The notes below the pieces were generated by a model that searched no databases, was not told the DNA's origin, and saw nothing but the letters and a program-made list of their open reading frames with translations. Shown piece by piece: positions 47,137 through 63,788 of a stretch of DNA of 64,000 nucleotides (position 1 is its first letter; every line of letters starts with the position of its first letter). Position numbers and translations under genes: made by a program. The stretch comes from Motilibacter peucedani (GTDB lineage Bacteria; Actinomycetota; Actinomycetes; Motilibacterales; Motilibacteraceae). The DNA is taken from contig NZ_RBWV01000009.1 of the NCBI RefSeq assembly GCF_003634695.1, forward strand, positions 620,001 to 684,000. The letters are read 5' to 3'.

Positions 47137-48411
47137 ATGACCACACCAGCCCTCTCCGACGCCGCCGCCGTCCGGCGCTCGACGGTGCCCAGCCCGCCGG
47201 TGCTCGACGTCGTCGTCCCCGTCTACAACGAGCAGGACGACCTCGAGCCGTGCGTACGCCGCCTGGTCGCCTACCTGCGCTCCTCGCTGCCGTTCACCTT
47301 CCGCGTCACGGTCGCCGACAACGCGAGCACCGACGCCACGCTCGCCGTCGCGGCGCGCCTCGCCGGCGAGTACGCGGAGGTGCGCGCCGTCCACCTCCCC
47401 CAGAAGGGCCGCGGGCGCGCGCTGCGCTCGGTGTGGTCGGGGTCGGACGCCGAGGTCCTCGCCTACATGGACGTCGACCTCTCGACCGACCTCAACGGCG
47501 TCCTGCCGCTGATCGCCCCGCTCGTCTCCGGGCACTCCGACGTCGCGATCGGCACACGGCTGTCTCGCTCGTCGCGCGTGGTCCGCGGCGCCAAGCGCGA
47601 GCTGATCTCGCGCGCCTACAACACGATCCTGCGGCGTACGCTCGCGGCCGGCTTCAGCGACGCGCAGTGCGGCTTCAAGGCGGTGCGGCGCGACGTCGCC
47701 CAGCGGGTGCTGCCGCTGGTCGAGGACCCGGGCTGGTTCTTCGACACGGAGCTGCTCGTCGTGGCGCAGCGCGCCGGCCTCCGCATCCACGAGGTGCCCG
47801 TCGACTGGGTCGACGACCCCGACAGCCGGGTGGACATCGTCTCGACCGCGGTCGCGGACCTCAAGGGCGTCGCCCGGCTCTCCCGCGCCCTGGCCACGGG
47901 CTCGCTGCCGATCGCCCGGCTGCGCGCCGAGCTCGGTCGCGGCCCGCTGCAGGTGCCCTCGGCGGTGCCCGGCGTGCCGCGCGGCATGGCCGCGCAGCTC
48001 GCGCGGTTCGCCGCCATCGGCCTCGCGAGCACGCTCGCCTACGTCGCCGTCTTCGCCCTGCTGCGCGGTTCCATCGGCGGGCAGGCCGCCAACGTCGTCG
48101 CCCTGCTGCTGACGGCCGTGGCCAACACCGCGGCCAACCGCCGGCTCACCTTCGGCGTCACGACGAGCGAGGGCACTCTCGTGCACCAGGCGCAGGGACT
48201 GGTGGTCTTCGCGCTCGGCCTGGGGCTCAGCAGCGGCGCGCTGGCGCTGCTCCACTCTGCCGGCGGAGCGTCCGGCTCTGTCGAGCTCGTCGTCCTGGTG
48301 GCGGCCAACCTGCTGGCGACCGTCCTCCGCTTCGTCCTGCTGCGTGCGTGGGTCTTCCGTCAGGCGCCGACGGCTGTGGCGTCCTCCAGCACGCGCGAGG
48401 AGCCGGTGTAG
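47137..48411 (+). CDS. Glycosyltransferase family 2 fused to a GtrA membrane domain
   Basis: A 424-residue fusion. The N-terminal GT-A domain (about 25-260) has [14 protein letters not shown], a metal-binding YMDVDLSTD and the later [11 protein letters not shown], as in dolichol/polyprenol-phosphate sugar transferases. The C-terminal part (about 285-410) has four membrane helices and the GtrA signature [13 protein letters not shown]. Such fusions charge a polyprenyl phosphate with a hexose and help flip it across the membrane for wall glycan modification. ATG 47137 has GGGGGG before it. The last 52 bases overlap the 3' end of fdhD on the other strand. Confidence 0.88.
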
Positions 48412-49205
48412 ACGTTGAGCCCGTCACCGCGTACGAAGCCGATCAGCGTCATGCCCGCCTCCTCGGCGAGGTCGACCGCGAGCGACGACGGTGCACTGAC
48501 GGCGGCGAGCACGGGGATGCCGGCCATCCAGGCCTTCTGCGTCAGCTCGAACGACGCGCGGCCGCTGACCATGAGCACCGTGCCGCGCAGCGGCAGCAGG
48601 TCGTGCGTGAGCGCCCAGCCGACCACCTTGTCGACGGCGTTGTGGCGGCCGACGTCCTCGCGCATGCAGAGCATCCGGCCCTCGGCGGTGAAGAGCCCAG
48701 CGGCGTGCAGGCCGCCCGTGCGGTCGAAGACCTTCTGCGCCGCGCGCAGCGCGTCGGGCAGGCTGGTCACCAGTCCGGCGGTCACCTGCACCGGGTCGTC
48801 AGCCACTGCGTACGCCGTGCTGGTGCGCACGGCGTCGAGGCTCGCCTTGCCGCACACGCCGCACGACGAGGTCGTGTAGAACGCCCGCTCGACCGACGGG
48901 TCGGGCGCGGCGACGCCGGGCGCGAGGGTCAGGTCGAGCACGTTGTAGGTGTTGAGCCCGTCCTCGCCCGCGCCGTCGCAGAAGCGCATGGAGGACAGGT
49001 GCTCGGGCTTGGTGACCACGCCCTCGCTGACGAGGAAGCCGGCGGCGAGGTCCATGTCGTCGCCCGGCGTGCGCATGGTGACGGCGAGCGCGCGGCCGCC
49101 GACACGGATCTCCAGGGGCTCCTCGACGACCAGGGTGTCCGGGCGCTCGGTGCGGTGCTCGCCCCGCAGTCTCACCACGGGGCGGCGGGCGGTCACGCGG
49201 CTCAT
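48360..49205 (-). CDS. fdhD: Formate dehydrogenase accessory sulfurtransferase FdhD
   Basis: A 281-residue FdhD, which moves sulfur from a cysteine desulfurase to the molybdenum cofactor of formate dehydrogenase and is required for activity. The sulfur-carrying CxxC is in [14 protein letters not shown]. Other blocks: [38 protein letters not shown] (as [12 protein letters not shown]), [18 protein letters not shown] and [13 protein letters not shown]. The start is ATG 49205. It belongs functionally with the formate dehydrogenase genes 3-8 kb away. The 3' end runs 52 bases into the convergent glycosyltransferase gene. Confidence 0.96.
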
Positions 49206-49743: not shown

Positions 49744-49749
49744 TACGTT
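49744..49749 (+). promoter_or_regulatory. -10 box for selD (leaderless type)
   Basis: TACGTT lies seven bases before ATG 49757, with no ribosome site. The in-frame TTG at 49748 falls inside this box, which argues for the ATG as the real start. Confidence 0.4.
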
Positions 49750-49756
49750 GTCGCTC

Positions 49757-50761
49757 ATGACGCTCGAGGCGACCTACCGGCTGACGCAGTTCGCCCACGG
49801 CGGCGGGTGCGCCTGCAAGATCCCGCCCGGTGAGCTGGAGGACGTCGTCGCGGGGCTGCTGCGCCCGGCGGTCGCCTCTGAGCACGAGCTGGTCGTCGGG
49901 CTCGACGACGGCGACGACGCGGCGGTGGTGCGCGTGCGCGACGGTCTCGGCATCGTCGCCACGGCCGACTTCTTCACCCCGGTCGTCGACGACGCCTACG
50001 ACTGGGGACGCATCGCGGTCGCCAACGCGCTGTCCGACGTCTACGCCATGGGCGGGCGCCCGCTCGTCGGGGTCAACCTGCTGTCGTGGCCGCGCGACGT
50101 GCTGCCCTTCGAGCTGGCGCGCGAGGTCCTGCGCGGCGGGCTCGACGTGGCGAGCGAGGCCGGCTGCCACGTCGGCGGTGGGCACAGCGTGGACGACCCC
50201 GAGCCGAAGTACGGCATGGCGGTCACCGGCCTCGTGGACCCGGGGCGGCTGCTGCGCAACGACGCGGGCGCGGCCGGGCTTCCGCTCACGCTGACCAAGC
50301 CGCTGGGCATCGGCGTGCTGAACAGCCGCCACAAGTCGACCGGCGAGCGCTTCGAGCAGGCCGTCGACGCGATGACCACGCTGAACCGCGCTGCGTCGGA
50401 GGCGGCGCTCGCCGCTGGTGCGGTGGCGGCGACCGACGTCACGGGCTTCGGGCTGCTGGGCCACCTGCACAAGCTGGCCCGCGCCAGCGGGGTCACCGCA
50501 GTGGTCGACTCCGCGGCGGTGCCCTACCTGGACGGCGCCCGCGAGGCGCTCGCGGACGGGTACGTCTCCGGCGGGACCCGCCGCAACCTCGACTGGGTGC
50601 GCCCGCACGCCGACCTCGACGGGGTGCCCGAGGGCGAGGCCCTGCTCCTCGCCGACGCCCAGACCTCCGGTGGGCTGCTGGTCGTCGGCGAGGTGCCGGG
50701 CTACCCGGTGGTGGGTGAGCTCATCGCTCCCCGCGAGGGCGTCACCCTCGTCGTGCGCTGA
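49757..50761 (+). CDS. selD: Selenophosphate synthetase (selenide, water dikinase)
   Basis: A 334-residue SelD, which uses ATP and selenide to make selenophosphate, the selenium donor for selenocysteine. The active-site loop is GGGCACKIPPGEL, with Cys18, Cys20 and Lys21 in the places of Cys17/Cys19/Lys20 of E. coli, so this copy is a Cys and not a Sec form. ADFFTPVVDDAYDWGRIAVANALSDVYAMGG and ATDVTGFGLLGHL are the ATP/metal blocks, and QTSGGLL ends the pattern. The ATG follows a TACGTT -10 by seven bases. The 3' end overlaps the formate-channel gene by 20 bases. Confidence 0.96.
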   Translation: MTLEATYRLTQFAHGGGCACKIPPGELEDVVAGLLRPAVASEHELVVGLDDGDDAAVVRVRDGLGIVATADFFTPVVDDAYDWGRIAVANALSDVYAMGGRPLVGVNLLSWPRDVLPFELAREVLRGGLDVASEAGCHVGGGHSVDDPEPKYGMAVTGLVDPGRLLRNDAGAAGLPLTLTKPLGIGVLNSRHKSTGERFEQAVDAMTTLNRAASEAALAAGAVAATDVTGFGLLGHLHKLARASGVTAVVDSAAVPYLDGAREALADGYVSGGTRRNLDWVRPHADLDGVPEGEALLLADAQTSGGLLVVGEVPGYPVVGELIAPREGVTLVVR

Positions 50762-51650
50762 CCTTGCCACCGCTGCGGCCGTTGCGCGAGGGCGCACCGG
50801 CGGTGCCGCTCGGGTCCGAGCCGGCGCTCGCGGCAGCCCCCTCGGTGTCGCGCAGGTAGAGCCACCAGTAGGCACAGGCGACGAAGATGCCTGCTCCCAC
50901 CAGGTTGCCGAGGAACGCGAAGACCCAGTTGTCGAGGATCGCGCCCCAGCCCATGCCCGGGACGCCGGCCCAACGGGCAGCGGGGAGGAAGAACATGTTG
51001 GCGATGACGTGGTCGAAGCCGAGGGCGACGAACGCCATGATCGGGAAGAAGATGCCGAGGATCTTGCCGCCGATGTCGTCCGCCGCCATGGCGAGCCAGA
51101 CCGCCAGGCACACCAGCCAGTTGCAGCCCACCGCGCGCAGGAAGATCTGCCAGTTCGTCTCGGTCACGGCCTTGCCGGTGGCGATGCCCGCCAGCCGCGT
51201 GTAGGTGGAGGCGCCGGCGCTGCCGGCCTGGCTGTGCACGGTGCCGATGACCCCGGTCTTGACCGCGAGGAAGTAGGCGACGAACAGCGAGCCGAGCAGG
51301 TTGGCGACCAGCACGACGGCGAAGTTGAACGACAGCCGGCCGATGGTGACCCGCTTCTGGAGCACGGCCATCGGGACCAGCGCCATGTTGCCCGTCAGGA
51401 GCTCGGCTCCGGCGAGGACGACGAGGATGAGCCCGAGGCTGAAGACGGCGCCCGTGATGAGGGAGATGATCCCGCCCCACTGGGCCTTGTCGAGCCCGGC
51501 GGTCACCACGATGGCGAGCAGCCCACCGAAGGCGATGTAGGCACCGGCGAGGAATCCGCCGACCAGCATGCGATCAGGCGTCAGCAGTGCCTTCTTCTCG
51601 CCGCTCGCCACTGCGGCGACGGCGATCTGGTCAGGGGTCTTGTAGGGCAT
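50742..51650 (-). CDS. Formate/nitrite transporter family channel (FocA-like)
   Basis: A 302-residue FNT channel with six membrane helices. Diagnostic stretches are YIAFGGLLAIVV near helix 1, AGAELLTGNMALVPMAVLQKRV, CNWLVCLAVWLAMAADDIGGKILGIFFPIMAFVALGFDHVIANMFFLP with the pore histidine, and GNLVGAGIFVACAYWW. The position 46 bases after the NrfD-type subunit gene, on the same strand, makes formate the likely cargo. GGAGG precedes ATG 51650. A hydrophilic Ser/Gly-rich tail ends the protein and its codons overlap selD on the other strand. Confidence 0.92.
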   Translation of the reverse strand: MPYKTPDQIAVAAVASGEKKALLTPDRMLVGGFLAGAYIAFGGLLAIVVTAGLDKAQWGGIISLITGAVFSLGLILVVLAGAELLTGNMALVPMAVLQKRVTIGRLSFNFAVVLVANLLGSLFVAYFLAVKTGVIGTVHSQAGSAGASTYTRLAGIATGKAVTETNWQIFLRAVGCNWLVCLAVWLAMAADDIGGKILGIFFPIMAFVALGFDHVIANMFFLPAARWAGVPGMGWGAILDNWVFAFLGNLVGAGIFVACAYWWLYLRDTEGAAASAGSDPSGTAGAPSRNGRSGGKVSARRG

Positions 51651-51696: not shown

Positions 51697-52776
51697 CTAG
51701 CGGTCCGAGCGCGCGGGGCGCCCCTGCTGGAGCCGCTCGCGTTGTGGGACCACGACGTACTTCGGGTCCTTCGTCGACGCGACGCCTGCGTAGAACACGC
51801 CGAAGCGCGTCAGGAGGGAACCCGCGAGCAGGGACGTACCCGCCAGGGCGGAGATCACTCGTGATCGCCGCCCGAGCACTGCGCCCGCCGCGCCCGCGAC
51901 GGTGAGCGCGCGGGCGGCACGCAGCTGGCGGCCGGGCCGGTCCTCGCGGTAGGGCTCGCTGAGCAGGCCGTGGGAGTGCTCGACCAGGTGCGTGCCGGCG
52001 AGCTCGGCCGCCGCACCGAGGACGGCTGCCCGCCGGGCGCCGCCGGCCTGCGCGGTAGGCGCGAGCACGAGGCCCATGCCGCCGCCGCTGGCCAGCGCAC
52101 TGCCGGCGAAGACGAAGGGCAGCTCGCGGTAGACCTCGTGCCACGACGGCACGGCGGTGTCGGCGAACAGCACGGCGGTGTAGGTGGCGAGCGCCGGCGC
52201 GACCGCAGCCGCACCGAAGCCCGCAGCGCTGCCCGCGGGAGGCAGCACCGTGCGGAGCAGACCGAGCGGCCCGCGCCGCGGCAGCAGCGGCGCGGCCTCG
52301 GAGACGGCGGCGGCCCCGGCGAGACCGCCGTAAGCGGCGAGGATCCACGTTCCCACCGACATCGGCGACGTCGGCTTGGCGACACGGAGCATGTTGTAGA
52401 AGCGCTCCTTGCGGCCGAGGTCGTTGATGAGGAAGTACGTGCTGGCGAGCAGCGCTCCCATCGACGTCACGCGACCGGCGCGGCGCAGCGCAGGCGCGCC
52501 GGTGACGTCGGCACCGGCTGCCACGAGGGAGGAGCCGGCAGCGAGGCCGCCGGTGAACAGGTAGATGGCGATGTCGTGCGTCCACACGGGCGCCTTGAGG
52601 ATCGGACGCCCGTAGTAGGAGCGGAACTCCGCCTCGGGGACCATGACGCTCTCGTCCTGGCGGCGCCCGCGGCCGCGGCGGCCACGGCCCTTGCCCGAGC
52701 TCCACACCGGAGCGGTGACGGCGGCGTCGGGGCTGCCCGCGTGGACGGGGTCGCCCGCGGCACCCTGCTTGCTCAT
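51697..52776 (-). CDS. NrfD-type membrane subunit of formate dehydrogenase
   Basis: A 359-residue polytopic protein of the NrfD/PsrC family, expected to anchor the dehydrogenase and pass electrons to quinone. After a hydrophilic Arg/Gly-rich N terminus (1-45) come MVPEAEFRSYYGRPILKAPVW, then about eight membrane segments with HDIAIYLFTGGLAAGSSLVAAG, DLGRKERFYNMLRVAKPTSPMSVGTW (family signature) and SWHEVYRELPFVF. There are no heme-ligand histidines of the FdnI type, so this is not a cytochrome b subunit. ATG 52776 overlaps the beta-subunit stop (ATGA). Confidence 0.88.
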   Translation of the reverse strand: MSKQGAAGDPVHAGSPDAAVTAPVWSSGKGRGRRGRGRRQDESVMVPEAEFRSYYGRPILKAPVWTHDIAIYLFTGGLAAGSSLVAAGADVTGAPALRRAGRVTSMGALLASTYFLINDLGRKERFYNMLRVAKPTSPMSVGTWILAAYGGLAGAAAVSEAAPLLPRRGPLGLLRTVLPPAGSAAGFGAAAVAPALATYTAVLFADTAVPSWHEVYRELPFVFAGSALASGGGMGLVLAPTAQAGGARRAAVLGAAAELAGTHLVEHSHGLLSEPYREDRPGRQLRAARALTVAGAAGAVLGRRSRVISALAGTSLLAGSLLTRFGVFYAGVASTKDPKYVVVPQRERLQQGRPARSDR

Positions 52777-53849
52777 CGGGCGGACCGCCTGCCGAGGAAG
52801 GAGAGCACGGCGCCGGCCACCATCATCGCGGCCGCTGCGCCGGCGTGCTTCCACATGTCCGGGAGGTCTCGCGTGGTCACCACCGGGTCCGGCGGCAGGC
52901 CGTAGACCTCGGGCTCGTCGAGCAGGAGGAAGAACGCGCCGTCGCCGCCGACGCCGTCGTTGTCGTCCTCGCCGTAGAGCCGGGCCTCGGTGACGCCGGC
53001 TGCGTGCAGAGCCTCGACCCGCTTCTCGGCCCGGTCGCGCAGCTCGACCAGCTCGCCGAACTGGATCGACTCGGTCGGGCAGGCCTGCGCGCAGGCGGGC
53101 GTCTGGCCGGCGCCGAGCCGGTCGTAGCACAGCGTGCACTTCCACGCGCGGCCGTCGTCCTCGCGCTTGTCGATGACGCCGTAGGGGCAGGCCGAGACGC
53201 AGTAGCCGCAGCCGTTGCAGATGTCCTCCTGCACCACGACGGTGCCGAACTCCGTGCGGAACAGCGACCCCGTCGGGCAGACGTCGAGACAGGCCGCGTG
53301 CGTGCAGTGCTTGCACACGTTGCTCATCATCAGCCAGCGGAAGTCGGAGCGGCCCTCGACGCCGGTCTCGCGGCCGGGTGGCTGGGAGCCCGGCATGCCG
53401 AGGAACGCCTGTCCCACACCGGCCTTGTCGGCCGCCTCGGCCGCGGCCTCCGCGACGGGGATGCCACCGGGGACGGCCGTGCCGAGCTTGTCGGTGTCGA
53501 GCGACCGCACGCCCGCGGCCACCACGTCGAACGCCGGCCCGGCCGCCGACGGGCCGGTCGGGGTGTCGGTGAAGGGTGGGGTCTTGCGGCCCAGCGGCAG
53601 CGGCTGCTCGATGAAGGCGACCGCGCGCCACGAGTCGGCGCCGAGCCCGCCGGTGTTGTCGTAGGAGAAGCCCAGGAGGTTCAGGCCGTCCTCGGGGACG
53701 GCGTTCCACTCCTTGCAGGCCACCTCGCAGGCCTTGCACCCGATGCAGACGCTGGTGTCGGTGAAGAACCCGACCCGCGCCGGCGGGTCTTCGTAGCCGG
53801 CGTCGGCTGCGGGGTCGAGCGGACCGTAGAGGCTGTTGGCCGAGACCAC
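52773..53849 (-). CDS. Formate dehydrogenase iron-sulfur (beta) subunit
   Basis: A 358-residue ferredoxin-type electron-transfer subunit. Four cysteine sets for [4Fe-4S] clusters are visible: CIGCKACEVACKEWN, CKHCTHAACLDVCPTG, CNGCGYCVSACPYG and CTLCYDRLGAGQTPACAQACP. A roughly 110-residue insertion lies between sets one and two, and a single membrane helix (AGAAAAMMVAGAVLSFLG) is at the C terminus, as in FdnH-type subunits. GTG 53849 lies one base past the alpha-subunit stop, with GCGAGG upstream. It is the middle gene of the alpha-beta-NrfD operon. Confidence 0.94.
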   Translation of the reverse strand: MVSANSLYGPLDPAADAGYEDPPARVGFFTDTSVCIGCKACEVACKEWNAVPEDGLNLLGFSYDNTGGLGADSWRAVAFIEQPLPLGRKTPPFTDTPTGPSAAGPAFDVVAAGVRSLDTDKLGTAVPGGIPVAEAAAEAADKAGVGQAFLGMPGSQPPGRETGVEGRSDFRWLMMSNVCKHCTHAACLDVCPTGSLFRTEFGTVVVQEDICNGCGYCVSACPYGVIDKREDDGRAWKCTLCYDRLGAGQTPACAQACPTESIQFGELVELRDRAEKRVEALHAAGVTEARLYGEDDNDGVGGDGAFFLLLDEPEVYGLPPDPVVTTRDLPDMWKHAGAAAAMMVAGAVLSFLGRRSAR

Positions 53850-53850
53850 G

Positions 53851-56800
53851 TCAGACCTCGCCTTCTGTGATGGCTTCGGCGAGGGCTGCCTCGTCGGCGG
53901 CCCGGTCGGCCTGGTCGGCCAGCAGGTGGGTGGTGGCTGCCACGGTGCCCGTCTCCTCGTCGACACGGCCGCGCAGCTTGTAGTCCTCCATCAGCGCGAG
54001 GACCGCGGGTCCGCGCGGACGGCGCCCCGGGCGTACGTCGCACGTCCCGGCCTTGCACTCCTGGATGTGGACGTTCGGGTCGAGCGTCAGGTGCGGCAGG
54101 TCGTTGACCACGTCGCCGGTGGTGAGACCACCTGGTCCCCAGTGGTAGGGCAGCCAGATCTGGTGGATCGTCTGGTTCTGCACCCGCAGCGGGGTGAGCC
54201 GGTCGGTGATGAGCACCCGCGCCTCGATGACGGCGCGCACGGTGATGACGTGCGCCCAGTCGAGGTGCGAGAGCCCGCGCTCGGCCGCCAGCTCCGGCGA
54301 TACCTCCATGAAGAGCTCGGGCTGGAGCTCCGAGAGGTAGGGCAGGAACCGGCTCATGCCGCCCGCGGTGTGGTGCTCGGTCAGGCGGGAGGTCGTCCAG
54401 ACGTAGGGGAAGACGCCGGAGCCGTACTCCGGCGGGCTCGGGTGCATCTCGTTGAAGCTCGCGGTGTAGATCTCGCGGGTCGGGTTCTGCTGCTGGGTGT
54501 AGACCGAGTTGCGGATCGGCGACTCGCCCGGCTCGTAGTGCGCGGGCAGGGGCCCGTCGAGGGCACCCTTCGGCGCGTAGAGCCACGCCTTCCCGTCGGC
54601 CTGCATGACGAACGCGTCGTCGCCGGCCAGCGCGTCAGGACCGCTGGCGCCCTGCTCCGGCTGGAAGTGCGGGTGCTTGGTGGCCTGGAAGTCGGGGACG
54701 TCGTGCCCGGTCCAGGTCTGCTCCTCCTCGTCCCACCAGACCAAGGCCTTGCGCTCGCTCCACGGCTTGCCGTCGGGGTCGGCCGAGGCGCGGTTGTAGA
54801 GGACGCGACGGTTGGCAGGCCAGGCCCAGCCCCACTCGCCGGCGAGCCAGTTCTGCTCCTTGCCCGGCTTGCGGCGCGCGGCCTGGTTGACCCCGTCGGC
54901 GAAGACGCCGGTGTAGATCCAGCAGCCGCCCAGCGTCGAGCCGTCGGCCTTCATCTCGAGGTAGGAGCTCAGCGGCTTCTTCGTCGCGACCTCGTAGCCG
55001 TTGATCTCCATGAGGACGGCCTCGGCGTCGGGGTCCTGCTTCTCGCCGATGAGCGGGTAGTCCCAGGTGACGTCGAGCAGCGGGCGGTCGCGCGGGTCCG
55101 TGGAGGCAGCCAGCTTCTCGCGCATCTTGCGACCCAGGTGGTAGATGAACCACAGGTCGCTGGTGGCCTGGCCCGGCGCCTCGACGGCCTTCTCGCGCCA
55201 CTGCAGCAGCCGCTGGGTCTGGGTGAAGGTGCCCTCCTTCTCGACGTGCGTCGCCGCGGGCATGAAGAACACCTCGGTGCGGCACTCCTCGGGCACGATC
55301 TCGCCGGTCTCGATCTCGGGCGCGTTCTGCCAGAACGTCGCGCTCTCGATCATGACGAGGTCGCGCACGACGAGCCAGTCGAGGTTGGCCAGGCCGAGGC
55401 GCTGGGCGCGCCCGTTGGCGGAGCCGACCGCGGGGTTCTGGCCCAGCAGGAAGTAGCCGAAGATCTTCCCGCCCTCGATCATGTCCATGACCTGGCTGTA
55501 GGTGCCGTGGTCGGCGTTGATGCGGGGCAGGTAGTCGAAGCCGTAGTCGTTCTCGGCGGTCGCCTTGTCGCCGAACCAGGCCTTCAGCAGGTTGATGATG
55601 TAGGCGTCGGCGTTGCCCCAGAAGCCCTTCTGGTTGGCGCCCTTGATCTCGTCGATGTAGTGCTCGAGGTCGCTGTGCTCGTCGACGTGCGGCATCGAGA
55701 GGTAGCCCGGCAGCAGGTTGTAGAGCGTCGGGATGTCGGTCGATCCCTGGATGCTGGCGTGCCCGCGCAGCGCCATGATGCCGCCGCCCGGGCGGCCCAT
55801 GTTGCCCAGCAGCAGCTGGAGGATCGCGCCGGTGCGGATGTACTGCACGCCGGTGCCGCGCTGGGTCCAGCCGACGCTGTAGACGAGCGCAGTCGTACGC
55901 TCGCGGCCGCTGTTGGCCGTCCAGGCCTCGACGACCTCGTCGAAGAGGTCGGGTGAGACGCCGCAGACCTCCTGCACCATCTCGCGGGTGTAGCGGGAGA
56001 AGTGCCGCTTGAGGATCTGGAAGACGCAGTGCGGGTGCTGGAGCGTCTCGTCCTTCTGCACCTCGTGGCTCTCGAGCGCGGGCCCGCCGGAGCCGTGCTG
56101 CTGACCCTTCTCGGAGGAGCTGGCGCGGTCGGTCTCGTGGCCCTGCCCGCCATCGGAGTCCTCCTTGCCGGCGTACTGCCACGACGTCGTGTCGTAGGAG
56201 CGCCTCTCCTCGTCGAAGCCGGAGAACAGCCCGTCGAGGTCCTCGGTGTCCTGGAAGTCCTCGCTGATGATCCACGAGGCGTTGGTGTAGGCGCGGACGT
56301 AGTCCTCGAACCACAGGTCGTTGCTGAGGACGTGGTTGATCACGGCCCCGAGCAGCACGATGTCGGTGCCCGTGCGGATGGGCACGAACGTGTCGGCGAG
56401 CGCGCTGGTGCGCGTGAAGCGGGGGTCGATGTGGATGACCTTCGCGCCGCGCGCCTTCGCCTCCATGACCCACTGGAACCCGACCGGGTGGCACTCGGCC
56501 ATGTTCGAGCCCTCGATGACGATGCAGTCAGCGTTGGCGAGGTCCTGCAGGGAGGTGGTCGCGCCGCCGCGACCGAACGAAGCACCCAGACCGGGCACTG
56601 TGGCGGAGTGTCATATGCGGGCCTGGTTCTCGACCTGGATCGCGCCCATGGCCGTGAACAGCTTCTTGATCAGGTAGTTCTCTTCGTTGTCGAGCGTCGC
56701 GCCGCCGAGGCTCGCGATGCCCATCGTGCGCCGCAGCGTGCGGCCCTGGTCGTCGGTCTCCTGCCAGCCGCGGCGGCGGGCGTCGATGACGCGGTCGACG

Positions 56801-57180
56801 ATCATGTCCATCGCCGTGTCGAGCTCGAGCTCCTCCCACTCCGTGCCGTAGGGCTTGCGGTAGAGGATCTGCGTCTGGCGCAGCGGGCCGTTGACCAGGC
56901 TCTCGCTGGCGGCGCCCTTGGGGCAGAGCCGGCCGCGCGAGATCGGGCTGTCGGGGTCGCCCTCGATCTGGGTGACCCGGCCGTCCTTGACGAACACGCG
57001 CTGGCCGCAGCCGACCGCGCAGTAGGGGCACACCGACTTGGCGACCTTGTCGGCGGTCTCGGTGCGGGCGGTGAGCGTCTTCGACCGGTGCGACTGCGAC
57101 GCGGCGCCGCGACCCAGCGGGTCGTCGCCGGTCAGCTGCCGGTAGACCGGCCAGCCCTCGAGGAAGGTGCGTACGCCCAC
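53851..57180 (-). CDS. Selenocysteine formate dehydrogenase, catalytic alpha subunit (UGA read as Sec)
   Basis: About 1109 residues if the in-frame UGA (56613-56611) is read as selenocysteine. Residues 51-58 (CPYCAVGC) and Cys86 bind the [4Fe-4S] cluster. Sec190 lies in QARI-U-HSATVPGLGASFGRGGAT, the place of Sec/Cys in E. coli FdnG and FdhF. Molybdopterin blocks follow (IEGSNMAECHPVGFQWVMEA, IHIDPRFTRTSALAD, MRFLPYLS-type C terminus, LPYHWGPGGLTTGDVVNDL). It oxidises formate to CO2. No twin-arginine signal is present, so the site is cytoplasmic. GTG 57180 has GGGAGG eight bases upstream. A naive gene call would split it at 56611. Confidence 0.94.
56582..56613 (-). promoter_or_regulatory. Bacterial SECIS element after the Sec UGA
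   Basis: Directly after the UGA (56613-56611) the message can form GUGCCC (56598-56593), loop GGUCU (56592-56588) and GGGUGC (56587-56582). The loop sequence is that of the E. coli fdhF SECIS that binds SelB, and the loop begins 18 nucleotides after the UGA, the same distance as in fdhF. Two G-U pairs occur in the lower stem. Confidence 0.85.
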
Positions 57181-57351: not shown

Positions 57352-57444
57352 GGAGGCGTCTGCGTTCCTGGTGGGCGTCCCGGTCTTCAAAACCGGTGAG
57401 GGCGAGCAGCTCGTCCTGGCGGGTTCGATTCCCGTCCGCCTCCG
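57352..57444 (+). tRNA. selC: Selenocysteine tRNA (anticodon TCA)
   Basis: 93 bases. The anticodon TCA (57387-57389) lies in loop CTTCAAA on stem CCGGT/ACCGG, and reads UGA. Sec-specific features: a six-pair D stem (GCGTTC 57362-57367 with GGGCGT 57373-57378), a long variable arm (GGGCGAG/CTCGTCC, 57400-57416) and an extended acceptor arm. The acceptor pairs GGAGGCG with CGCCTCC; the eighth position is T opposite C. T arm GCGGG-TTCGATT-CCCGT. Discriminator G; CCA is not encoded. It sits between the selenoenzyme gene and selA. Confidence 0.95.
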
Positions 57445-57470
57445 CTCGCGCGCCCGTCGGTGGGCGTTGT

Positions 57471-57482: not shown

Positions 57483-58766
57483 GTGGACGACCCGCGCCGC
57501 CGCGTACCCCGCACCGACGCGCTGCTCGGCGACCCCCGGCTGGCCGAGGCCGCCGACCGCCTGGGGCGCGCGCGGGTGAAGGCCGCGGTGCAGGAGCAGC
57601 AGGGCGCCGTACGCGCCGGTGCCCCCGCGCCCGACGACTGGGCCGCCGCCGTGCTGGCCGCGCTGCCGCGGACCGCGTCGTCGCTGCGACCCGTGCTCAA
57701 CGCGACCGGCGTCGTCCTCCACACCAACCTGGGCCGCGCCCCCCTCGGGCCGGCCGCGGTCGAGGCCGTGGCGGCGGCCGCCGGCTACACCGACGTCGAG
57801 TTCGACCTGACCACGGGTGCGCGCGCCCGCCGTGGCCGCGGCACGCTCGCGGCGCTGCTCCGCGCGGTGCCCGACGCCGAGGACGCGCTCGTCGTCAACA
57901 ACGGCGCCGCCGCGCTGGTGCTCGCGACCACCGCGCTCGCTGCAGGGCGGGAGGTCGTGGTCAGCCGCGGCGAGATGGTCGAGATCGGCGACGGCTTCCG
58001 GCTGCCCGACCTCATCGCCTCGACCGGCGCGCGGCTGCGCGAGGTCGGCACCACCAACCGCACCCACCTGCGCGACTACGACGACGGGGTCGACGAGGAC
58101 ACCGGCTGCGTGCTCAAGGTCCACCCCAGCAACTTCCGGGTCGAGGGCTTCACCAGCTCGGTCGAGGTCGACGCGCTGGCCGGGCTCGGCGTGCCCGTCG
58201 TGGTCGACGTCGGCAGCGGCCTGCTCGCCCCCGACCCGCTGCTGCCCGACGAGCCCGACGTCGCGAGCGCGCTGCGCGCCGGCGCCGACCTGGTGACCTG
58301 CAGCGGCGACAAGCTGCTGGGCGGCCCGCAGGCCGGCCTGGTGCTCGGCCGTCGCGGCACGGTCGAGCGGCTGCGCCGCCACCCGCTCGCCCGCGCGCTG
58401 CGCGTCGACAAGACGACGCTCGCCGCCCTGGAGGCGACGCTCGAAGGCCCGCTGACGCCGGCGTGGCGGGCGCTGCGCACCTCCTCCGACGAGCTGCGCC
58501 GACGCGCCGAGTCCCTCGCCGCGGCGTTGGGCGGCGGCGAGGTCGTGCCGAGCGCCGGGGCCGTCGGTGGCGGCGGCGCGCCGGGGGTCGAGCTGCCGGG
58601 CTGGGCGGTGGCGCTGCCCGAGGTGGTGGCGCCGCGGCTCCGGGCCGGCACCCCGCCCGTCGTCGCCCGCGTCGAGGGTGGCCGCTGCCTGGTCGACCTG
58701 CGCTGCATCGAGCCGGCCGACGACGCGGTGCTCGCCGGCGCGGTGCGCGCCGCGGTGGAGGGCTAG
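57483..58766 (+). CDS. selA: L-seryl-tRNA(Sec) selenium transferase
   Basis: A 427-residue PLP enzyme that converts Ser-tRNA(Sec) to Sec-tRNA(Sec) with selenophosphate. The PLP lysine is Lys277 in CSGDKLLGGPQAG. Other blocks: RPVLNATGVVLHTNLGRAPLG, VVNNGAAALVLATTALA, VVVSRGEMVEIGDGFRLPDL, VGTTNRTHLRDYDD and LKVHPSNFRVEGF. Length is slightly below the E. coli enzyme. It starts at GTG 57483 right after a TAGGTT box, and is followed by selB after four bases, so the two form one operon next to their tRNA. Confidence 0.97.
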   Translation: MDDPRRRVPRTDALLGDPRLAEAADRLGRARVKAAVQEQQGAVRAGAPAPDDWAAAVLAALPRTASSLRPVLNATGVVLHTNLGRAPLGPAAVEAVAAAAGYTDVEFDLTTGARARRGRGTLAALLRAVPDAEDALVVNNGAAALVLATTALAAGREVVVSRGEMVEIGDGFRLPDLIASTGARLREVGTTNRTHLRDYDDGVDEDTGCVLKVHPSNFRVEGFTSSVEVDALAGLGVPVVVDVGSGLLAPDPLLPDEPDVASALRAGADLVTCSGDKLLGGPQAGLVLGRRGTVERLRRHPLARALRVDKTTLAALEATLEGPLTPAWRALRTSSDELRRRAESLAAALGGGEVVPSAGAVGGGGAPGVELPGWAVALPEVVAPRLRAGTPPVVARVEGGRCLVDLRCIEPADDAVLAGAVRAAVEG

Positions 58767-58770
58767 CCGG

Positions 58771-60516
58771 GTGCGCGTCGTCGCCACGGCCGGGCACGTC
58801 GACCACGGCAAGTCGACGCTGGTCCGCGCGCTCACCGGCATGGAGCCAGACCGCTGGGCCGAGGAGCGCCGGCGCGGCATGACGATCGACCTGGGCTACG
58901 CGTGGACGACGCTGCCCGACGGCGAGACCGTCAGCTTCGTCGACGTGCCTGGCCACCAGCGCTTCCTCGGCAACATGCTCGCCGGGCTCGGGCCGGCCCC
59001 CGCGGTGATGTTCGTCGTGGCCGCCGACGAGGGCTGGCGGCGCCAGTCCACCGAGCACCTCTCGGCAGTCGACGCGCTGGGCGTGGAGCACGGCCTGCTC
59101 GCGGTGACCCGCTCCGACCTCGCCGACCCGGGCCCGGCCACGCGCGAGGCGCTCGAGCACCTCGCGGCGTCCAGCCTCGGCAGCGTCGAAGCGGTCGCGG
59201 TCTCGGGGGCCACCGGCGCCGGCCTCGACGAGCTGCGGGCGGCGCTGGCCCGCACGGTCGCCCGTCTGCCGTCGCCCGACACGACCGCACCCGTACGCCT
59301 GTGGCTCGACCGCGCCTTCACCGTCCGCGGCGCCGGCACTGTCGTCACCGGCACCCTGGCCGCCGGGCGCGTCGCCGTGGGCGACGAGCTGGAGCTCGGG
59401 GGCCGCACCTACGCCGTGCGCGGGCTCCAGAGCCTGGGCGAGACCCGGACCTCGGTCGAGGCGGTGGCTCGCGTGGCCCTCAACCTGCGCGGGCTCGAGC
59501 ACGACGACGCGCGGCGCGGCATGGCAGTGCTCACGCCTGGCGCCTGGCGGCTCGCGACCGAGCTGGACGTGCGGCTCACCGTCCCCGCCGCCGAGCTGCC
59601 CGGCGAGCTGATGCTCCACGCCGGCACGGCGGCGGTCCCCGTGCACGTGCGGCCGCTCGGGAACGACGTGGCGCGGCTGCGGCTGGCGCACCCGCTGCCC
59701 CTGCGCGCCGGTGACCGCGCGCTGCTGCGCGACCCGGGTGAGCACCGCGTCGCTGCCGGCGTCTCCGTCCTGGACGCCGAGCCGCCCGTGCTGCGCCGGC
59801 GCGGTGCCGCGGCCTCGCGCGCGACCGCACTGTCGCAGGGGACTCCCCACTTCGTCGCTGAAGTGGCACGCCGTGGTTGGTTGAAGCGGTCCGACGCCGA
59901 GGCGCTCGGGATCGTGCCGGTCGAGGACGCGTCGGTGCTCGAGCTCGGTGAGTGGTACGTCATGGGCTCCGCGCTCGCGGCGTGGCGCGACCAGCTCGTC
60001 GCCCGGGTCCGCGAGCACCAGCGCAGCCGGCCGCTGGAGCCGGGACTGCCCGAGGGGGAGGCCGCTCGCGGCCTGCCCGACCGCGCCCTCCTCCCGGTGG
60101 TCGTGGGAGCGGCCGGACTGGAGCGCGCGGCGGGCCGCGTGCGTACCCCTGGCTACCAGCCGTCGCTGGGGCCCGCCGAGGACGCGGTGCGCCGCCTCGA
60201 GGAGCGTCTGCGCGCCCACCCCTTCGACGCGCCGGAGGTGCCGGAGCTCGCCGCGCTGCGGCTCGGGCAGCGCGAGCTGGCGGCCGCCGAGACCGCGGGC
60301 CGGCTGCTGCGCGTCGGCGGCGACGTCGTCCTGCTGCCGGACGGCCCGGCGCGCGCGATGCGGGTGCTGGCCGGGCTCGAGCAGCCGTTCACGACCAGCA
60401 CGGCGCGCCAGGCGCTCGGGGTGTCTCGGCGGGTGGCGGTGCCGCTGCTCGAGTGGCTCGACGCCCGCGGCTGGACGCGCCGCGGCGAGGGCGGCGTGCG
60501 GCAGGTCGCCCGCTGA
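58771..60516 (+). CDS. selB: Selenocysteine-specific elongation factor SelB
   Basis: A 581-residue translation factor that carries Sec-tRNA to UGA codons marked by a SECIS. GTPase motifs: G1 TAGHVDHGKSTLVRALTG, G2 RRGMTIDLGYAW, G3 SFVDVPGHQRFLGNM and G4 TRSDLADPG (TRSD in place of NKxD). Three EF-Tu-like barrels and C-terminal winged-helix repeats for SECIS binding (from about 370) follow, including RRGWLKRSDAEALG and the final VSRRVAVPLLEWLDARGWTRRGEGGVR. GTG 58771 is four bases after the selA stop; the longer upstream frame is noncoding. SelB here should recognise the GGUCU loop at 56588-56592. Confidence 0.96.
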   Translation: MRVVATAGHVDHGKSTLVRALTGMEPDRWAEERRRGMTIDLGYAWTTLPDGETVSFVDVPGHQRFLGNMLAGLGPAPAVMFVVAADEGWRRQSTEHLSAVDALGVEHGLLAVTRSDLADPGPATREALEHLAASSLGSVEAVAVSGATGAGLDELRAALARTVARLPSPDTTAPVRLWLDRAFTVRGAGTVVTGTLAAGRVAVGDELELGGRTYAVRGLQSLGETRTSVEAVARVALNLRGLEHDDARRGMAVLTPGAWRLATELDVRLTVPAAELPGELMLHAGTAAVPVHVRPLGNDVARLRLAHPLPLRAGDRALLRDPGEHRVAAGVSVLDAEPPVLRRRGAAASRATALSQGTPHFVAEVARRGWLKRSDAEALGIVPVEDASVLELGEWYVMGSALAAWRDQLVARVREHQRSRPLEPGLPEGEAARGLPDRALLPVVVGAAGLERAAGRVRTPGYQPSLGPAEDAVRRLEERLRAHPFDAPEVPELAALRLGQRELAAAETAGRLLRVGGDVVLLPDGPARAMRVLAGLEQPFTTSTARQALGVSRRVAVPLLEWLDARGWTRRGEGGVRQVAR

Positions 60517-60834: not shown

Positions 60835-61995
60835 GTGCAGGGCTTCCGCCGCGACCGGCTGACGTGGGTCGCCTACGTGCTGCTCGCCTGGTTCGCCTAC
60901 CTGCAGGCAGCCCCCGGCCTGGTGATCGCCCACCTGCGCGACGAGCTCCACCTCAGCTACTCGACCGGCGGGCTGCACGTCGCGGCGTTCGCCACGGGCA
61001 CCATCCTCGCCGGCGTCGTGGGTGTGCGGCTCGAGACGGCGGTCGGCCGCGGCCGGCTGCTCTGGTCGGCCACCCTGCTGATGTCCGTCGGCGTCGTAGG
61101 ACTGACCGCGGGACGCGTCGCCACGGTGACCGTGGGTTCGGTGCTGGTGATGGGCGTCGGCGGGGGCCTGCTGCTGGTCGCGATCCAGGCCGCGCTGTCC
61201 GACCATCACGGCGAGCTCCGCACCGTGGCGCTCACCGAGGCGAACGTGGCTGCGAGCGTCGCCTACGTCGTGCTGATCGGCGCGCTGTCCCTGACCGCCG
61301 CGCTGCACGCCGGCTGGCGGCTGGCCCTGCTCGTGCCGCTCGCGGTTCCGGCGGTGGCGTGGTGGGGCAACCGGGAGCTCGCGATCGTGGCGCCGCCGCC
61401 GTCGCGGCTGGCGGCGGGCTCGCTGCCGCGGGTGTTCTGGCTGGCGGCGACCATGATGTTCTGCACCACCGCGGTCGAGTGGTGCATCGCGGCTTGGGGC
61501 GCCAGCTTCGTCGAGGACGCGACCGACGTCAGCGCGGACACGTCCGTCGCGCTGATGGCCGGCTACTTCGGTGGCGTCGTCGTCGGTCGCACCCTCGGCA
61601 GCGGCCTGGCGCGGCGCTACGACCCGGCCCGCCTGCTGGCTCTCGCCATGGGCCTGACCGCGCTCGGCTTCGCGGTCCTCTGGCCGGCGGGCTCCCCGGT
61701 GCAGGCGCTGCTCGGGCTCACCCTGCTCGGCGTGGGGCTCGGCAACCTGTTCCCCATGGGGCTCTCGGTGACGGTCGCCCTCGCACCCGACCGGTCGGCG
61801 CTGGCGAGCAGCCGGGCCGTGACCACGACGGCGGCAGCAGTGCTGCTCGCGCCGCTCACCGTGGGCACGCTGGCCGACGCCACCTCGCTCGAGGCGGCGT
61901 TCGGCGTCGTGCCCGTGATGCTGGCGCTGTCGGCGGTGCTGCTCGCCACGCTGGCGAGGGTGCAGGCTCGGCTCAGCTCTGCGCCGGCGCCTTGA
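60835..61995 (+). CDS. MFS transporter
   Basis: A 386-residue major facilitator with about 12 hydrophobic segments arranged as two halves joined near residue 195. The RLETAVGRGRLL loop after helix 2 and the related GLARRYDPARLLALAMG loop in the second half are the usual MFS repeats. The substrate cannot be told; the start AAPGLVIAHLRDELHLSYSTGGLH is typical of actinobacterial putative exporters. GTG 60835 follows TAGCGT by seven bases. The last 23 bases overlap the convergent siderophore-binding lipoprotein gene. Confidence 0.85.
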   Translation: MQGFRRDRLTWVAYVLLAWFAYLQAAPGLVIAHLRDELHLSYSTGGLHVAAFATGTILAGVVGVRLETAVGRGRLLWSATLLMSVGVVGLTAGRVATVTVGSVLVMGVGGGLLLVAIQAALSDHHGELRTVALTEANVAASVAYVVLIGALSLTAALHAGWRLALLVPLAVPAVAWWGNRELAIVAPPPSRLAAGSLPRVFWLAATMMFCTTAVEWCIAAWGASFVEDATDVSADTSVALMAGYFGGVVVGRTLGSGLARRYDPARLLALAMGLTALGFAVLWPAGSPVQALLGLTLLGVGLGNLFPMGLSVTVALAPDRSALASSRAVTTTAAAVLLAPLTVGTLADATSLEAAFGVVPVMLALSAVLLATLARVQARLSSAPAP

Positions 61996-63031
61996 CCGCA
62001 GTGGCGGGGTCGCCGTCGAGTGCGTCGGCGAGCACCGGCACGAAGGTGTCGAGGAAGGCGGGGATGCTGAGGACGCTGGCAAAGCCGGCCTCGGCTCCCA
62101 CGACGAGGTCCGACATGGGTATGTCGCGACCCTCCTTGCTGACGCGGAGCCCCTTGAACACCTTGCTCGATTGCAGCTTCGAGATGGCGGACGCATCGGT
62201 CGAGAGCAGCACGAGTGCGTCGGTGTCGAGGAGGTCGAGCCGCTCGGTGCTCACCTCGGCGTAGAACTTGTCGCCGGCCAGGGTGAGCAGCTGCTGCGGC
62301 ACCGTCGTCCCGAGCGCCTTGAGGATGCGGCCGCGCGAGTCCTGGTCGGTGTAGGCGTAGACCAGCCCGTTGCCGAGCGCGCCGAAGACGGCTGTGGCGC
62401 CGTCGAACTCCGGGTGCGCAGCCTTCGCCGCGGCGAACTGCGCCTCCACGCCGTCCACCAGCGCCTGGGCCTCGTCCTGCTTGAACAGCGCCTTGCCGAT
62501 GATGAGCTGTGCCTCCTGCCAGGGCGTGCCGTAGTCGACGTACTGCTTCGGCTGGGCCAGCGTCGGCGCGATCTTCGACAGGGTCGCGTAGTCCTTCGCC
62601 GTCATGCCGGACGAGAGCCCGACGATGAGGTCGGGCTTGAGAGCCGCGACCGCCTCGGGATCGATCTCGGCCGCCGACAGCACCGTGGGCTTCGCGCCAC
62701 CGAGCTTGTCGTGCGCCCACGGCCAGGTCGCATCGGGCTGGTCGCCGTACCAGTCGCGGATGCCGACCGGCACGACGCCGAGCGCCAGCACCGGGTCCTG
62801 GTCGGTGAAGCCCACGCTGACGACCCGCTTCGGCGGCGCCGGGATGGTGGTGGTGCCGTACTTGTGCTCGATGGTGACCGGTCCCGCGGCGGCCGCCGGA
62901 GTCGCGGCTGCCGGTGCGGCGGAGGGGGAGCTGTCGCCGCACGCGGTCAGCGCGGCCAGCGAGGCGATGACCGCGGCGACGGTCAGCAGGCGCCGTGCGG
63001 TTGCGCGGCGGGATCGGGGTGAACGGGCCAT
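61973..63031 (-). CDS. Iron-siderophore ABC transporter substrate-binding lipoprotein
   Basis: A 352-residue periplasmic-binding-type lipoprotein. The basic N terminus (MARSPRSRRATARR) and hydrophobic core end in lipobox LTAC with the acylated Cys31. A low-complexity Ala/Pro linker follows, then the FecB/TroA-type fold: VTIEHKYGTTTIPAPPKRVVSVGFTDQDPVLALGVVPVG, LKPDLIVGLSSGM, YGTPWQEAQLIIGKAL and TDALVLLSTD. It would present a ferric siderophore to the membrane transporter. It lies downstream of the FhuF-like reductase and the ATPase, separated by a 73-base spacer with a strong hairpin. Confidence 0.92.
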   Translation of the reverse strand: MARSPRSRRATARRLLTVAAVIASLAALTACGDSSPSAAPAAATPAAAAGPVTIEHKYGTTTIPAPPKRVVSVGFTDQDPVLALGVVPVGIRDWYGDQPDATWPWAHDKLGGAKPTVLSAAEIDPEAVAALKPDLIVGLSSGMTAKDYATLSKIAPTLAQPKQYVDYGTPWQEAQLIIGKALFKQDEAQALVDGVEAQFAAAKAAHPEFDGATAVFGALGNGLVYAYTDQDSRGRILKALGTTVPQQLLTLAGDKFYAEVSTERLDLLDTDALVLLSTDASAISKLQSSKVFKGLRVSKEGRDIPMSDLVVGAEAGFASVLSIPAFLDTFVPVLADALDGDPATAVKAPAQS

Positions 63032-63104: not shown

Positions 63105-63788
63105 TCAGTCGGAGTCGGGTCGTCTCCGCGGGCAGCCGGAGCAGTCGGCGCCGCCGGGGGTCTTGTAGGCGAAGCAGCACACCGAGCGCGGACGCTCCGC
63201 GTGCGACTCCCCGGCGAGCGCGTCGCCCAGTGCGTCCGCCGCGAAGCAGCTCACGGCCCGTGCGCCTCGACGACCTCGCCGGGCCCAGACCGCAGCGAAC
63301 CACCGGGTGTGCGCGGCCAGCTCGTCGTCGAGCCGCGAGCGCAGTGCTGCGGCGCCGGCGACGACCTCGGCATCAGGGTGACGGGCGTAGGGATCGTCGG
63401 GCAAGCACGCGAAACACCCTGACAGCAGGCACAACCCGGTCGGCCATCCACCAGGTGCCCACTGGACCGCGAGGTCCGCAGGACCGAGACGTGGTACGCG
63501 GTGGATCGTCGCGAACATCGCGCCGGCCGCCATGGCGACGCCGCGGAGGTACCAGCCGAGCACGTACGACGGTGCAACCGTCGCGTCGACAGCTGCACCG
63601 AAGTACGCGTCGAGCCGCTCCTGCGCACCGCGGACGAGCGCGTCCAGCCGCGCGCCGTCGAGCTCGGCGAGCAGCGTCCAGCCGTCTCCGACGGGTTCCC
63701 CACAGTGGAGGAAGGCCTGCTGCGCCTGCGGAAGTCGGAACAGGCAGGAGGCCAGGGGAGGGGCGTCGAGCGCGAGCGAGGCTGTCAC
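63105..63788 (-). CDS. (2Fe-2S) ferric-siderophore reductase, FhuF-like
   Basis: A 227-residue cytoplasmic protein with the FhuF C-terminal cluster motif CC-x10-C-x2-C (CCFAYKTPGGADCSGC), which binds a [2Fe-2S] centre in siderophore reductases that release iron as Fe(II). The middle shows SYVLGWYLRGVAMAAGAMFATIHRVP, a family stretch. An additional CLLSGCFACLPDD segment near residue 120 adds three cysteines whose role is unclear. GTG 63788 overlaps the ATPase stop (GTGA). Confidence 0.85.
   Translation of the reverse strand: MTASLALDAPPLASCLFRLPQAQQAFLHCGEPVGDGWTLLAELDGARLDALVRGAQERLDAYFGAAVDATVAPSYVLGWYLRGVAMAAGAMFATIHRVPRLGPADLAVQWAPGGWPTGLCLLSGCFACLPDDPYARHPDAEVVAGAAALRSRLDDELAAHTRWFAAVWARRGRRGARAVSCFAADALGDALAGESHAERPRSVCCFAYKTPGGADCSGCPRRRPDSD

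Follow-up and report, generated by a model that had tools for sequence, protein, structure and literature searches.

In the fdhF-type SECIS of Escherichia coli, U17 bulges from the 5′ strand of the upper stem, and G23 and U24 lie in the apical loop (PMC8659212). The published bSECIS model describes an apical loop of 3–9 nt with a G in loop position 1 or 2, an upper stem of 4–16 bp, a distance from UGA to loop of 16–37 nt and an MFE of −7.5 kcal/mol or lower (PMC13188914). Closer to the DNA studied here, selenium-dependent formate removal has been reported for an actinomycete with Sec-type formate dehydrogenases (FDHs), in which the SECIS was called by bSECISearch (PMC7176365); the same gene cluster has been described in Corynebacterium aurimucosum (PMC2830990), and a UAG-Sec code has been reported for the Geodermatophilaceae (PMC5330540). 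NCBIfam has a dedicated model for the actinobacterial FDH family, NF041513.

Here we analyse a window of 64,000 nucleotides from Motilibacter peucedani (contig NZ_RBWV01000009.1, positions 620,001 to 684,000; coordinates below are those of the window). Its fdhA is the same gene, with the same Sec position, as the Sec-type FDHs of the NF041513 family, for example that of Actinomycetospora chiangmaiensis (PMC7176365). The hairpin behind its in-frame UGA agrees in loop position, in stem and in its G23 and U24 with those of the 166 stop-containing genes compared here, with no substantial difference; its A15–U33 and G18–U30 pairs are minor variants. From the sequence comparisons that follow, we put the probability that this hairpin is a bacterial SECIS directing Sec insertion at UGA190 at roughly 97%.

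Results

A single frame interrupted by UGA beside a complete sel gene set

The alpha subunit gene and its internal UGA are placed as follows:

53851..57180, minus strand: fdhA, formate dehydrogenase alpha subunit, predicted selenoprotein of 1109 aa with Sec190 (frame and NCBIfam NF041513)
56611..56613, minus strand: UGA codon, predicted to be read as Sec190 (homologue codons at the same place)

From its GTG start at 57180 to its terminal stop at 53853–53851, fdhA is a single frame of 1109 codons, open except for the UGA at 56613–56611, which is codon 190. Both halves match NF041513 (formate_DH_Act) contiguously, at profile positions 2–185 and 187–1065, and the whole gene reaches 1930.4 bits (cut-off 1400) with one internal TGA; a search of the genome found fdhA to be the only gene scoring with this model. 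Around it lie the genes expected to serve Sec and the remaining FDH functions:

57352..57443, plus strand: selC, tRNA-Sec, anticodon UCA (Rfam RF01852, 73.7 bits, E 3.3e-13)
57483..58766, plus strand: selA, selenocysteine synthase (TIGR00474, 435 bits; PF03841)
58771..60516, plus strand: selB, Sec-specific elongation factor (TIGR00475, 271.8 bits, above cut-off)
49748..50761, plus strand: selD, selenophosphate synthetase, Cys form with a GGGCACK motif (TIGR00476, 380.9 bits; motif from the translation)
48360..49205, minus strand: fdhD, formate dehydrogenase accessory sulfurtransferase (NF001943, 398 bits)
52773..53966, minus strand: fdhB, iron-sulfur beta subunit, ORF limits (TIGR01582, 179.8 bits, below the cut-off of 334.7)
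51697..52545, minus strand: NrfD-type membrane subunit (PF03916, E 8e-11)
50742..51650, minus strand: formate/nitrite-type transporter (PF01226, 247.5 bits)

Thus selA, selB, selD and tRNA-Sec(UCA) form a complete set inside ~11 kb of the window. ARAGORN calls selC as tRNA-SeC (tca) at 57352–57445, and the C-terminus of SelB carries a SelB-wing_3 domain (Pfam, E 2.3e-13). The start of selB is probably the GTG at 58771, directly behind the TAG stop of selA, while the true start of fdhB probably lies further inside its ORF. Two further minus-strand genes, for a periplasmic binding protein (61973–63031, PF01497) and an FhuF-type iron-sulfur protein (63105–63788, PF11575), probably belong to siderophore-iron uptake, unrelated to the SECIS.

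A plain ORF finder splits fdhA into two pieces, as would be seen if the UGA were a real stop, or a sequencing or pseudogene error, in a broken gene. However, exactly this position is a stop in 166 distinct homologues, which span many families and have intact frames on either side, and the full sel gene set adjoins fdhA; on the comparative data we reject a pseudogene or sequencing error and regard a broken gene as extremely improbable. The single frame, the fit of both halves to one model, the sel genes and the comparative data agree with the decoding of this UGA as Sec, which an earlier sequence-only reading of the DNA had proposed. Its expectation that gene callers would give two truncated genes holds for a plain ORF finder but is outdated for RefSeq, where each of two relatives carried on plasmids has a single annotated CDS running across the in-frame TGA.

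A hairpin within the bounds of the bSECIS model

With nt 1 defined as the U of UGA, the element comprises:

56581..56599, minus strand: SECIS apical stem-loop, nt 15–21 paired with nt 27–33 (fold, covariation, invariant CCC and GGU codons)
56588..56592, minus strand: SECIS loop GGUCU, nt 22–26, including G23 and U24 (sequence, fold)

RNAfold pairs nt 15–21 (56599–56593) with nt 27–33 (56587–56581) in a stem of 7 bp, two of whose seven pairs are wobbles in this genome (G18–U30 and U17–G31). The interval first given for the hairpin and its UGA, 56582–56613, therefore needs only the last stem base, 56581, to be added. The element lies inside all five bounds of the bSECIS model (PMC13188914): a loop of 5 nt (3–9), a stem of 7 bp (4–16), G22 and G23 as loop guanines, 18 nt from UGA to loop (16–37), and energies of −9.3 kcal/mol for the upper stem-loop and −11.9 kcal/mol for 42 nt (−7.5 or lower).

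The folding energy is unremarkable against dinucleotide shuffles (z = +0.30; 115 of 200 shuffles equal or better), and we have left it out of the evidence for this reason; 22% of synonymous recodings likewise fold equally well or better. When the peptide is recoded synonymously, 16% of the variants form a stem of 6 bp or more, and 1.5% combine the stem with G23 and U24. A covariance model of the SECIS has one match in the whole genome (E = 2.5e-12; runner-up 0.28), which, as the model was built partly from the window sequence, speaks for uniqueness rather than independent detection. Rfam gave no model matching a bacterial SECIS at the fdhA hairpin.

Selection on the RNA across 188 homologues

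We compared 188 distinct homologues, drawn from named genomes and an even survey of the class. The codon at the Sec site is TGA in 162, TAG in four and TGC or TGT in 22, giving 166 stop-containing (Sec) genes to set against 22 Cys homologues, nine of which have Ser or Val at Sec+6. The hairpin is kept in all 166 stop-containing genes; its loss in relatives that make Sec, named beforehand as the observation that would count against a SECIS, was not seen.

Nucleotides 18 and 30 are third codon positions, of Val and Gly respectively, and either can vary without altering the protein. The pair 18–30 is kept in 164 of the 166 Sec genes (CG 91, UA 48, UG 14, GU 9, GC 2) and broken in two, as against 8 of 22 kept in the Cys genes (Fisher p 7e-14, relatedness ignored; because the Cys homologues are one clade, explained by a single change on the tree, this control amounts to a single evolutionary event, and Fisher p-values make the contrast look more certain than it is). 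The covariation within the Sec genes does not depend on the Cys control. On a tree built without the SECIS region the pair undergoes 26 state changes, 13 of them altering both sides on one branch, and its mutual information of 0.85 bits heads a set of 392 third-position control pairs, with the next at 0.42. Its pairing fraction is 0.99, whereas no other variable pair exceeds 0.69, and over 38 distinct elements the covariation score lies above all 500 shuffles and all slid versions.

Pairs 16–21/27–32 are formed in 98–100% of Sec genes, whereas 15–33 is formed in only 56% and is thus an optional extension; the window has A15–U33 (ACA...GCU) where a congener (G079) has G15–C33 (ACG...GCC), both synonymous. 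At pair 16–32, one A–U replaces G–C by way of two amino-acid changes (L166).

Both G23 and U24 occur in 166 of 166 Sec genes, U24 in 3 of 22 Cys genes. Of the 325 conserved columns in which the amino acid has a choice of four or more codons, only two use a single codon across the Sec genes, Sec+6 CCC and Sec+7 GGU (nt 19–24), although GGU is a minority choice for Gly in these GC-rich genes (1,623 of 14,066). The 23 genes with Ser in place of Gly at Sec+7 all use AGU there, which retains U24; GGU at Sec+7 is found in 3 of 22 Cys homologues.

These data bear on a second explanation, namely that Sec is read but the hairpin is a by-product of the V-P-G-L-G peptide (CCC GGU CUG GGN), the RNA signal being absent or elsewhere. 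The 16% of synonymous recodings that reach a stem of 6 bp or more and the energy z-score of 0.3 speak for such a by-product, yet it would account neither for covariation of pair 18–30 at synonymous positions nor for invariant CCC and GGU codons, and the Cys homologues have lost the RNA features although their peptide is almost identical. On these three counts a pure peptide by-product is rejected, and we attach to this explanation only a marginal chance. The comparison across genes is thus decisive for the SECIS reading of the hairpin, as first suggested from the sequence.

Sec+6 itself is Pro (CCC) in 166 of 166 stop-containing genes and Ala, Ser or Val in the 22 Cys homologues. Judged from this alignment, an amino acid adjoining the active site (Sec+6 Pro, window 56595–56593) appears to be imposed by the RNA stem.

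Co-occurrence with selB and variant relatives

The gene selB is present in 24 of 24 tested Sec-type genomes and in 2 of 20 Cys-only genomes, with 18 of 20 lacking it; the SelB family search also matches EF-Tu, and true SelB was sorted by hand using score, frame length and proximity to fdhA. Here too the Cys forms, being one clade, stand for a single evolutionary event. Two genomes of the class survey (G206 and G315) have a full SelB though their only detected FDH of the NF041513-type family is the Cys form, and may use Sec in another protein. One homologue (L101, in G283) combines Cys at the Sec site with a single in-frame TGA at another point of the match; its genome lacks SelB, and the gene is probably a broken copy or a sequence error.

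The UAG-decoding SECIS described in the Geodermatophilaceae (PMC5330540) has the same stem-loop in the same gene and differs in its Sec codon, UAG rather than the UGA of the window. UAG stands at the Sec site before the same SECIS in three Modestobacter loci (L076, L077, L078) and in L183 (G390), matching that report. No CUA tRNA-Sec was found in the searched flanks of the Modestobacter loci, so that the UAG reading draws on PMC5330540. On two plasmids, Arthrobacter pYA7-1a (L247) and Tsukamurella plasmid 17 (L248), a Sec-type FDH is found together with selD, selA and selB; pYA7-1a has been typed as a conjugative plasmid, and Sec decoding may therefore be transferred as one package.

A loop shared with E. 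coli, a stem that is not

Checked against fdhF of MG1655 (b4079), the element shares the UGA CAC context, the 18 nt to the loop, GGUCU at nt 22–26, and U17, G23 and U24, so that the sequence-only reading was right in its loop and spacing. However, fdhF folds with a 4-nt loop, GGUC, closed by A21–U26, and with one U of the U17-U18 pair unpaired, whereas the window has a 5-nt loop, closure by C21–G27 and no bulge. The fdnG gene of E. coli (b1474) is of a homologous gene type and has AGUCU at nt 22–26; in contrast to the window, its RNAfold loop is closed further in (3 nt) and the 5′ strand of its stem has an unpaired base. Common to E. coli are the loop position and G23-U24, and the stem is not shared. 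The claim that an actinomycete keeps the enterobacterial SECIS geometry fails accordingly: position and letters agree, but the loop has 5 nt instead of 4, U17 lies in the stem and C21–G27 closes the loop. Nor is the 18-nt spacing an enterobacterial trait, given that the general bacterial model allows 16–37 nt (PMC13188914).

Could the SECIS nevertheless be read exactly as in E. coli, with U17 flipped out and G23 and U24 contacted? All three bases stand at their E. coli numbers, and U17–G31 is a weak wobble here that could open. Against this, U17 is set by the Val codon, the loop closes one base later than in fdhF, and nt 31 faces U17 between the supported pairs 16–32 and 18–30, which makes a one-sided bulge impossible. 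Nucleotide 31 is A in 93, G in 69 and U in four of the Sec genes, such that U17 has an A or G partner in 162 of 166, and the bulged U17 of the E. coli element is absent. We therefore consider it unlikely, though less so than the two explanations rejected above, that the E. coli manner of reading applies.

The SelB of the window is 33.6% identical to E. coli SelB overall and 40% identical over residues 1–340. In the last winged helix 18 of 49 positions are identical, and the closest solved chains for this domain are the SelB fragments 1wsu, 2ply and 1lva. Calling this SelB divergent is loosely true of the overall identity, but its last winged helix is still a clear SelB-wing_3.

Discussion

By analogy with what is established for SelB, we suggest that at a ribosome reaching UGA190 the C-terminal winged helix of SelB would hold the loop GGUCU while its body, with GTP and Sec-tRNA-Sec, would place Sec in the A site, at an efficiency of recoding likewise presumed from SelB elsewhere. 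The cluster's own SelA and SelD would make the Sec on the selC tRNA (UCA), and translation would continue to a full-length alpha subunit in which selenium is a ligand to the metal. Because the element falls within the bSECIS bounds, the SECIS and cluster of the family are published and RefSeq annotates its relatives, we regard this SECIS as a correct but ordinary finding, expected from its family.

The 5-nt loop, GGUCU or AGUYU, closed by C21–G27 characterizes the window and its relatives, and the same bulge-free type turns up again elsewhere in the phylum, in more distant genomes with the VPGLG peptide; for the phylum's other FDH-N genes, the predicted loops are mostly of 3 or 4 nt. Whether the SECIS of this family's Sec-type FDHs in the Actinomycetota is a uniform subtype, with an RGUYU loop, C21–G27 and no bulge, that SelB reads without a U17 contact is, in our estimate, evenly balanced. 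If it is, the U17 contact of E. coli would lie outside the general bacterial code.

The fdhA SECIS provides a clean and well-supported case of selection for an RNA signal in a stretch that also encodes protein. Conservation falls on G23-U24 of the loop and on a helix held at a set distance, rather than on an element of the E. coli type with a bulged U. Setting the 166 Sec genes against the Cys clade reveals the bases that the RNA signal fixes, CCC, GGU and pair 18–30, and these can help both annotation and the design of a minimal SECIS for actinobacterial laboratory hosts.
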